DNA from: a virus | Reading direction: 5' to 3' (one strand) | DNA length: 26,182 nucleotides | IMG/VR virus record: IMGVR_UViG_3300037882_001601 | Location: 1 to 26,182 of that record | In this document: positions 5,901 to 26,182 of the stretch, piece after piece | Layout: each line of letters begins with the position of its first letter | Numbering within the stretch: the stretch's first letter is position 1 | Program-made: the position numbers and the translations under genes | Notes under the pieces: generated by a model | Database searches by the model: none | The model's input: the letters and a program-made list of their open reading frames with translations, nothing else | What the model was told of the DNA's origin: nothing

Positions 5901-6703
5901 TATGCATACCCTTGGATTTCAAGATCCAGATCAGTGTAGTGTGAGTTTTTATATGACGGCTTAGTTAACGCTGTCGGGTTTTGCTGGCCAAAAACGCATT
6001 TGCTATTTTGATTGTTCGCCATAAAAAAAAGAGGTTTAGAGTCTAGCACGTGATTCATAAATTCTGGCCAGAAGGTGTCCACTTGGGTATAAGGTATATA
6101 CCTCAGTGATGCCTTTTCTTGCTTGCCATTGTACAGCCTGCGGGACTGTATAAAGTTATTTCCGTCAGTCCTAAAAGCCTCAACCTCATCAACGGAGGCG
6201 TTACGTGCTGGCTGATACCCAGTGCCTACCGTGCGATCAAATACAATAGCCTCGCCGCCGTAAATCGCTGATATGTAGCACTTAGATGTGAAATTTATAA
6301 CAACCTTAAATTCATTGGTTAAAACCGGATCAAAGGCAATCATCTGCGGCTCGCCATTAGAAAAAGACCCCCTAGATCCTAGGCTGACGTATGTCCCGCT
6401 ATCTAAGCTTAGGTAGGAGGCCTCAAAGGATAACCCGCAAGATCCGGCGTTTCTTGACAGCAACCCTATGTAATTTAAGGTAAAAACAGAATAACCGCTA
6501 ACGGTTATAGTAACTGGCCCAGATGTTGCTAGAGGGCTATACTCGGTATTTACCTTATAGTCATAGAGTAGCGCGACTGGGTAGCTTGTATCTACACTTG
6601 TCGCGGCGACAAAGCTGCTAGGGAGCATTGATCTATAGGCAAGATAAGCCTTGCATCTTGCTCCTGACGATACAGGGGTTGATATTACATAAGGGCTAGA
6701 CAT
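5900..6703 (-). CDS. Minor tail / distal tail-tip protein
   Basis: 267 residues between the tape measure and the tail-tip hub, the usual place of a distal tail protein or tail-tip adaptor. Residues 55-165 are beta-rich (PVTITVSGYSVFTLNYIG, EFKVVINFTSKCYI), compatible with a jelly-roll-like sandwich. The C-terminal third carries ASLRYIPYTQVDTFWPEFMN followed by a Cys-containing segment (CVFGQQNPTAL). No enzymatic motif is visible. GAGG lies nine bases before ATG; the stop overlaps the hub start. The position supports a structural tail role strongly, but the exact family is not recognised. Confidence 0.7.
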   Translation of the reverse strand: MSSPYVISTPVSSGARCKAYLAYRSMLPSSFVAATSVDTSYPVALLYDYKVNTEYSPLATSGPVTITVSGYSVFTLNYIGLLSRNAGSCGLSFEASYLSLDSGTYVSLGSRGSFSNGEPQMIAFDPVLTNEFKVVINFTSKCYISAIYGGEAIVFDRTVGTGYQPARNASVDEVEAFRTDGNNFIQSRRLYNGKQEKASLRYIPYTQVDTFWPEFMNHVLDSKPLFFMANNQNSKCVFGQQNPTALTKPSYKNSHYTDLDLEIQGYA

Positions 6704-21205: not shown

Positions 21206-21373
21206 TCAATCAAACCCCTTCAGTGTCCCATTAGCTTTAAAGTAAGCCTTACGCGCTGCTGCCTTCTCGGCTTGTAAAGCGACTAACTTTCTTTGATATG
21301 ACGCAAATATCTCTAACGCTGAATCTTTCATTTTTTTTAAATCCTCTTGGTTGATGTGTTTATTATTGTTCAT
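21206..21373 (-). CDS. Small Lys/Ala-rich helical protein (55 aa)
   Basis: 55 residues, MNNNKHINQEDLKKMKDSAL onward, predicted as one long helix (YQRKLVALQAEKAAARKAYF). ATG 21373 has AGG five bases upstream. A second in-frame ATG at 21331 (giving 41 residues) has GAGG upstream and would be the only start usable on a transcript from the 21362-21390 promoter, whose -10 box lies inside the first codons. The gene overlaps the DUF1289 gene by 11 bases. Function unknown. Confidence 0.6.
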   Translation of the reverse strand: MNNNKHINQEDLKKMKDSALEIFASYQRKLVALQAEKAAARKAYFKANGTLKGFD

Positions 21374-21414
21374 TAACACCTAAGTGTAAAGCATCTTTAC
21401 GTTTATTTACATTT
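21362..21414 (-). promoter_or_regulatory. Promoter with 30-bp operator-like element, copy A
   Basis: On the minus strand, TTTACA (21390 to 21385) and AATAAT (21367 to 21362) are 17 bases apart. The TTTACA is the last part of a 30-bp element (21385-21414) with two direct boxes (ATGTAAAT, ACGTAAAG, 10 bp apart) and an inverted TTTACA box. The same element occurs at 22146-22175 and 23471-23500. Here it lies in the last codons of the DUF1289 gene. Confidence 0.6.
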
Positions 21415-21548
21415 AGAAGAATCTGACTCTTTTCCTCGCTGGTGCAGCCATTCCACTCAATGACCTCTTTATAAGTTCGGTGGCAACCCTTGCAGATATC
21501 ATCTCCAAGAGAGGTCGAGCAGCGGCCTACGCATGGGGTTTTAGGCAT
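21363..21548 (-). CDS. DUF1289-family cysteine protein
   Basis: From ATG 21548 the protein is 61 residues. PCVGRCSTSLGDDICKGCHR supplies four cysteines (6, 10, 19, 22), the hallmark of DUF1289, a small family with a probable metal-binding or Fe-S-like Cys cluster common in proteobacteria and their phages; biochemical function is not established. An in-frame ATG at 21569 would add seven residues, but family members usually begin shortly before PCVG and AAGAG lies before 21548. The gene overlaps the upstream gene and carries operator copy A in its last codons. Confidence 0.8.
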   Translation of the reverse strand: MPKTPCVGRCSTSLGDDICKGCHRTYKEVIEWNGCTSEEKSQILLNVNKRKDALHLGVNEQ

Positions 21549-21784
21549 TGGCCAATCTCTTGAGTCCATCTGGCGGCAAATGTTTCATCTCCAATGTCGC
21601 CGGAGATAAATCGATCAACTATGTGTAGCATTTGCCCAGCCAAAAAAAGAGTATCAGCAGCAATTTTTAGCCTTGCTAGAGTCTCCTCGTCGCAAGTTTT
21701 GCTGTAATCTTTTATTTTCTGCTCGATCTCGACAGACGCATCATCTATGTTGTGCTGCAAATAATGAAAATTCCCGCCGCTCAT
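21527..21784 (-). CDS. Hypothetical phage protein of the MSGG-type (85 aa)
   Basis: 85 residues starting MSGGNFHYLQHNIDDASVEI, resembling small phage and prophage proteins that begin MSGGSF.Y and carry a helical body (LARLKIAADTLFLAGQMLHI...); their role is unknown. AGGAG lies eight bases before ATG, inside the last codons of the 29-residue membrane peptide gene, so the two are coupled. No metal-binding or membrane motif. Confidence 0.72.
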   Translation of the reverse strand: MSGGNFHYLQHNIDDASVEIEQKIKDYSKTCDEETLARLKIAADTLFLAGQMLHIVDRFISGDIGDETFAARWTQEIGQCLKPHA

Positions 21785-25732: not shown

Positions 25733-25927
25733 TTATTTTCCTTTAATTTTATTAGCACCTTTAACTATAAAATCAGAAAGCTTTATAACCGTATCAAGAC
25801 TAGGATTGATATTGTTACCACGAGCTATCTTATAGACAGTGTTGTAATGCAGCCCAGTGGACTTAGCCACCGCTGAAATATTTGCCTTAGATAGCTTATC
25901 TCTGATAACTGACAGACTTAAAACCAT
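25733..25927 (-). CDS. Small Cro-like helix-turn-helix regulator
   Basis: 64 residues. The HTH covers about 16-38: ISAVAKSTGLHYNTVYKIAR, with the AKSTGL turn and recognition helix HYNTVYKIA; it continues NINPSLDTVIKLSDFI, as in Cro/CI-type (XRE) phage repressors. The C-terminus is short and basic with no dimerisation or cleavage domain, so Cro-like rather than a CI repressor. It heads the minus-strand run, so it may regulate the TGTAAA/TTTACA elements downstream and its own promoter; this is inference. ATG 25927 has only a weak ribosome site. Confidence 0.83.
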   Translation of the reverse strand: MVLSLSVIRDKLSKANISAVAKSTGLHYNTVYKIARGNNINPSLDTVIKLSDFIVKGANKIKGK

Positions 25928-25958
25928 AAAAATTACTCAAAAATGTTAGTGAATCTCC

Positions 25959-25986
25959 AGTTTACATTAAAATATGGAAGAGTCAA
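25959..25986 (-). promoter_or_regulatory. Promoter of the HTH gene
   Basis: TTGACT (25986 to 25981) and TAAACT (25964 to 25959) are 16 bases apart on the minus strand. A TGTAAA box overlaps the -10 (AATGTAAACT), which would allow autoregulation by a TGTAAA-binding protein. Confidence 0.5.
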
Positions 25987-26030: not shown

Positions 26031-26182
26031 CCTTAGTTTTTCCTCACTAAGATTTTTTTGCTCGTAAGTCTTTGATTTATAAGGATTTTTTGACAAAACT
26101 GAAAAAAACCTTAGTGAGCAAAAACTAAGATTTTTTCGCTGTAAGTCATTGATTTATAAGGAGTTTTTACAATCTTAGTGAA
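26031..26182. repeat. Tandem repeat (~78 bp) with CTTAGT/ACTAAG hairpin cores, runs off window
   Basis: Unit 1 starts at 26031 and unit 2 at 26109. Each has CTTAGT-N8-ACTAAG (26032-26051, 26110-26129), then a T-run, then GTAAGTC, a variable base, and TTGATTTATAAGGA (from 26064 and 26141). A third CTTAGT begins at 26174. The eight loop bases of unit 1 (TTTTCCTC) match the reverse complement of unit 2 (GAGCAAAA) at seven of eight positions, so the core is inverted between copies. TAAGTCATTGATTTA is itself 12/15 palindromic. No gene fits in 25928-26182. Iterons, an attachment site or another recombination site are possible. Confidence 0.7.

Follow-up and report, generated by a model that had tools for sequence, protein, structure and literature searches.

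The right-hand end of the window, by which we mean the whole linear virus record of 26,182 bases analysed here, is best explained as an IHF-assisted replication-origin and divergent control region of a lytic, Guernseyvirinae-like siphophage, cut by the end of the contig, a reading to which we assign a probability of roughly two in three. The part of this reading that concerns the IHF-type sites is firmer than the part that concerns the origin. It draws on the repeats themselves, on their match to the IHF consensus and the pattern of constraint on that match, on the association of the same site with repeat arrays and primase, helicase or rep genes in other elements, and on a syntenic position in related phages. 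The features at this end are the following.

25733-25927, minus strand: gene for a Cro-like HTH protein of 64 aa (HTH_3, E 1.4e-5; PHROG transcriptional regulator, E 8e-12)
25943-25952, plus strand: isolated half-site TGTTAGTGAA, near the likely leftward transcription start and next to the Cro-like gene's promoter-like site (repeat search, 7-mer count)
25959-25986, minus strand: promoter-like site of the Cro-like gene, TTGACT-16-TAAACT (consensus scan)
26032-26051, plus strand: palindromic core 1, CTTAGTTTTTCCTCACTAAG (CTTAGT-N8-ACTAAG, perfect)
26064-26085, minus strand: predicted IHF-type site 1, AATCAAAGACTTA, with the consensus on the minus strand (IHF consensus scan, 26065; family conservation)
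26110-26129, plus strand: palindromic core 2, CTTAGTGAGCAAAAACTAAG, oriented opposite to core 1 (CTTAGT-N8-ACTAAG, perfect)
26141-26162, minus strand: predicted IHF-type site 2, AATCAATGACTTA (IHF consensus scan, 26142; family conservation)
26174-26182, plus strand: first bases of palindromic core 3, CTTAGTGAA, oriented as core 2 and truncated where the contig ends (read directly)

The last 255 bases of the window contain no genes and have a GC content of 24%, against 46% contig-wide, which agrees with the AT-rich, gene-free location next to a Cro-like gene described in the first-pass annotation; by its composition, this stretch fits a putative origin unwinding region. It lies upstream of the Cro-like gene, itself the first of a leftward early cluster, whose promoter-like site is a weak call because the scan of the region gave 4 such sites against 2.5 expected. 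The cumulative GC-skew minimum of the window falls at 26047, which is weak evidence since skew tracks gene strand here. An Rfam scan of the end region returned only sub-threshold, AT-rich matches of the miRNA type, and neither the Cro-like protein nor the portal protein gave any relative in scans of IMG/VR. Also within the early cluster, at 21363-21569, is a DUF1289 gene (E 4e-16), from a small family usual in bacterial genomes.

Both complete CTTAGT-N8-ACTAAG hairpins reported earlier are perfect, and no such palindrome arose in 100 shuffles of the contig. The claim that their cores lie in opposite orientations also held: read directly, cores 1 and 2 match at 19 of 20 positions as reverse complements, their 8-base loops agree at 7/8 positions when inverted and at 0/8 when direct (about 1 in 1000 by our own arithmetic), and the 34-bp blocks around them match at 31/34 inverted against 25/34 direct at best. 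Since both units have their outer flanks, C-CTTAGT...ACTAAG-A, in direct orientation, the inversion is confined to the palindromic core, and the remainder of the unit is likewise direct, as had been stated, with GTAAGTC(T/A)TTGATTTATAAGGA repeated beside the palindromes at 26064-26085 and 26141-26162. A third copy does begin at the edge, but the regular 78-bp period proposed for the array does not survive: the cores start at 26032, 26110 and 26174, so that the third begins only 64 bp after the second, and TRF reported no tandem repeat in the window. The contig stops inside the third unit, probably because assemblies often break in repeats. The last 255 bp contain the heptamer TCACTAA, on either strand, four times, a count reached by 0.6% of contig windows (shuffle p 0.002), two of the copies being paired as perfect palindromes, and thus the region has the several copies of one initiator-type site expected of an origin. 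A scan of virus contigs for the CTTAGT hairpin gave four matches, each a lone hairpin within coding DNA or at the end of a gene and none with an array like this one, and no relative was found with both the CTTAGT palindromes and the IHF site.

The direct repeats GTAAGTC(N)TTGATTTATAAGGA are, as far as their sequence can tell, predicted IHF-type sites. The IHF consensus YAANNNNTTGATW / WATCAANNNNTTR is matched exactly at 26065 and 26142 on the minus strand, with 2 other matches in 26 kb, and the invariant bases of the direct repeat are those of the consensus (YAANNNNTTGATW). IHF probably binds both sites in this phage. The 21 fixed bases of the site were found exactly in 73 IMG/VR stretches and 27 GTDB stretches, where chance would give fewer than one in the virus set (our arithmetic, with the set size an estimate); with four bases left free, at least 119 virus stretches match. 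The flanks of the site are unrelated between groups, and the site is mostly intergenic with no preferred orientation to genes, which speaks against an RNA or ribosome-binding element. The site or a close match occurs in phages without an annotated integrase nearby (Chivirus BP12C, Erwinia phage Kwan, Vibrio phage VCPH and Dickeya phage Amaethon) and also in the temperate Curvibacter phage PCA1, in prophages and in enterobacterial plasmids of 3-9 kb. A literature search for the exact motif gave no match. Xer dif/cer sites, Tus/Ter, FNR, Fis and oriT nic sites were set aside on sequence grounds, as was a rolling-circle nick site, to which there is partial likeness only.

Two results that do not presuppose the IHF reading bear on which bases of the site matter. 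Secondary copies with at most 4 mismatches lie near primary ones more often than in controls (32 against about 2.7), and in them mismatches fall on 8 of 288 IHF-consensus positions against 68 of 320 other fixed positions (p 5e-13), in a sample that is not fully independent because some copies may be local duplicates. When the centre triplet was freed and all virus contigs were scanned, only TGA (21 groups) or TGT (5) was found, while freeing an outer triplet gave at least 15 variants in at least 69 groups among the matches listed (difference from the centre triplet, p 2e-5). Constraint in the relatives is thus concentrated on the bases that IHF contacts, as in an IHF site. The in vivo IHF logo of E. 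coli is WAWCAACnnnTT, and the choice between TGA and TGT corresponds to its second W (PMC8407004). One E. coli element (L197) is a misfit, with a spacer that exceeds the spacing of IHF sites by 2 bp.

IHF classically acts at origins, attP sites and promoters, and the site is found in all three settings. At replication origins, the role of IHF has been reviewed (PMC4980987). Of 91 groups, 19 have a 7-mer present in four or more copies within 150 bp of the site, compared with 11 of 478 control windows centred on noncoding DNA (about ninefold; p 1.7e-9), and these 7-mers vary by group, as expected of initiator sites. In four stretches (L121, L142, L082 and L153) the site lies 41-57 bp past the stop codon of a primase or helicase gene; in the E. 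coli PCN061 element it comes after a TOPRIM-DUF927 gene and has inverted TGTTGTCTC repeats on either side, and plasmid pB5-8 has it ahead of RepA, next to TTGAGACA repeats. In 7 virus records and in Curvibacter phage PCA1 it adjoins a tRNA-type attP that an integrase accompanies; elsewhere it sits between a terminator-like hairpin and a promoter, or stands just before sigma-70-like promoters (L122, L124, L129 and L147). Because it is found also at attP sites and between terminators and promoters, the site alone does not signify an origin.

Several arrangements of the motif were noted along the way. In L012 (9874-9966) and L047 (653-745) the motif forms an inverted pair, one copy of which extends to a near-perfect palindrome (GTAAGTCGTTGATTTATAAGGACTTAC); a DnaA-box-like TTATCCACA lies near its partner. 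One virus contig of 101,655 bp carries four separate motif stretches (L020, L042, L043 and L070), like a dispersed element, three of the four with a nearby inverted partner (GTAAGTCATTGATTTATAAGGA...CAATAAAATCAATGACTTAC). Dickeya phage Amaethon (L188, 3001-3400) has two motif-plus-inverted-motif blocks with a TTGTTAACAA-like centre in a gene-free region of 1.1 kb. In Burkholderiales/Comamonadaceae chromosomes (L089, L091, L093, L103, L104 and L105), the context ..CATAGCGTTC-motif-TTTAAAAGTTTGCTTTTTTTC.. is conserved between species.

The closest terminase relatives place the window among phages whose corresponding region has a known gene order. Plesiomonas phage phiP4-7 (60.6% identity), Kagunavirus phages (57%) and contig L181 (59%) all have, at the equivalent place, a divergent gap that separates the early genes from a module with helicase/primase genes. 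Guernseyvirinae-type phages, the type to which these relatives belong, are lytic. The contig ends at 26182 before any replication gene is seen; by synteny, such genes would lie beyond that position. The gap of L181 carries inverted TTTTGGGTAAAT repeats, and that of phiP4-7 has TTCCCT-type repeats next to AAGTCATTGA; the full IHF consensus is absent from the gaps of all these relatives, AAGTCATTGA being all that phiP4-7 has of it. In phiP4-7 the cumulative GC-skew minimum, at 28035, is close to the gap, at 28363-28620. The divergent control region of L181 also holds a TTAC tetranucleotide run of about 11 units (6169-6212). In phiP4-7 (L200, 22832-24893) the terminase coding match runs past the annotated terminase toward an annotated homing-endonuclease gene, so the terminase call there may be truncated.

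We propose that the control region would sit between the leftward early genes, with the Cro-like gene first, and rightward DNA-replication genes past 26182, and that two kinds of protein site alternate in it, one phage-specific and one for host IHF. The CTTAGTGA half-sites, most of them paired as palindromes, could be bound by a phage initiator or regulator, and IHF at two strong sites would bend the DNA sharply and bring the phage sites together. Such bending might open a putative replication origin, set the divergent early promoters, or do both. A flipped spacer would be harmless to this arrangement, as a dimer would read both arms alike in either orientation.

The inverted core itself needs no recombinase, since spacers are known to be flipped when replication switches templates between short inverted repeats (PMC8604942). 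As each arm is the perfect inverted repeat of the other, the 20-bp core could be flipped with its arms unchanged. In that study, done in yeast (PMC8604942), spacers flipped only with arms of more than 9 bp, whereas the perfect arms here are 6 bp, which A and T tracts lengthen with a single mismatch. The most likely reading of the inverted loop is a neutral flip of the spacer within the palindrome. These observations bear on the three roles that the first-pass annotation had offered, attachment site, origin or folded-DNA recombination array, of which only the origin is retained. We found neither a tyrosine integrase (PF00589) nor a tRNA gene in the contig, the terminase relatives are of lytic type, and an integrase is present in just 8 of 49 records that share the repeat. 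The TTGATTTATAAGGA core, put forward as a possible attB, reads instead as the conserved part of the IHF-type site and is seen next to origins, attP sites and promoters alike.

Among other explanations, we think it rather unlikely that the palindromes serve as operators, bound by the Cro-like protein or by a divergent repressor, with IHF shaping a repression loop and no origin present. Palindromes with an 8-bp spacer would suit a dimer, the isolated half-site overlaps the point where the Cro-like transcript probably begins, the relatives have a divergent gap, and the same IHF site stands just before sigma-70-like promoters in the four stretches named above. However, two relatives of the Cro-like protein lack the CTTAGT palindrome upstream and share GTCAACACA instead, and wherever genes can be named, repeat arrays by the IHF site accompany primase/helicase or rep genes; origin and operator roles are, moreover, not mutually exclusive. 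It is improbable that the palindromes are intrinsic terminators that part convergent or read-through transcripts: although A and T tracts flank each core and both cores fold on the minus strand at about -11.6 kcal/mol (z -3.6 to -4.6), a terminator scan found none, the perfect stems have two G-C pairs only with the T tract inside the stem and not outside it, and any termination would be confined to the 5' region of the Cro-like gene.

That the region is an attP, with IHF sites and integrase arm sites, has the tRNA-type attP neighbours of the same site in its favour, but the lack of integrase and tRNA genes in the contig and the lytic type of its relatives make this very improbable. Least credible is a site-specific invertible switch that flips the core. 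A loop inverted between units with direct outer flanks is what such a switch would leave; against it, there are just two complete units and no tyrosine integrase in the contig, and known invertases act on sites longer than a 20-bp palindrome whose loop is 8 bp. Template switching, with the arm-length difference noted above, offers a route to the same inversion that involves no dedicated enzyme. We thus retain the IHF-assisted origin and control region as the preferred reading.

Beyond this phage, the 21-bp box GTAAGTNNTTGATTTATAAGG could be a shared cis-module, although we advance this tentatively: unrelated phages, plasmids and integrative elements may have come to share, through convergence or exchange, a single optimal and extended IHF site, used at origins, attP sites and early promoters and often as inverted pairs. 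A near-identical, longer-than-consensus IHF site of 21 bp common to unrelated mobile elements may be new. What looked like an odd inverted repeat becomes a readable control region, and GTAAGTNNTTGATTTATAAGG can serve as a searchable marker in virus contigs, by which origins, attP sites and promoter gaps can be located in many uncultured phages. The results also suggest that, in mobile elements, the effective site for IHF extends beyond the textbook one.

Origins of the iteron type that include an IHF site, such as those of pSC101, R6K and P1 (PMC4980987), likewise have repeated initiator-type sites by an IHF site and an AT-rich gap; unlike them, the repeats here are few, partly palindromic and partly inverted, and the sequence up to the contig end shows neither an initiator gene nor a DnaA box. 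The control regions of Kagunavirus (Guernseyvirinae) and phiP4-7, phages with terminases 57-61% identical to that of the window, occupy the same position between early genes and helicase/primase genes, but differ in their repeat sequence and in the IHF consensus. With respect to the IHF consensus WATCARNNNNTTR, every fixed position is matched by both copies in the window, and the relatives vary mainly outside those positions. The 5' side of the published site is described as merely AT-rich (PMC7581858), whereas the relatives found here additionally share GTAAG.. and ..TTATAAGG, which makes their site longer and more uniform than the published one.
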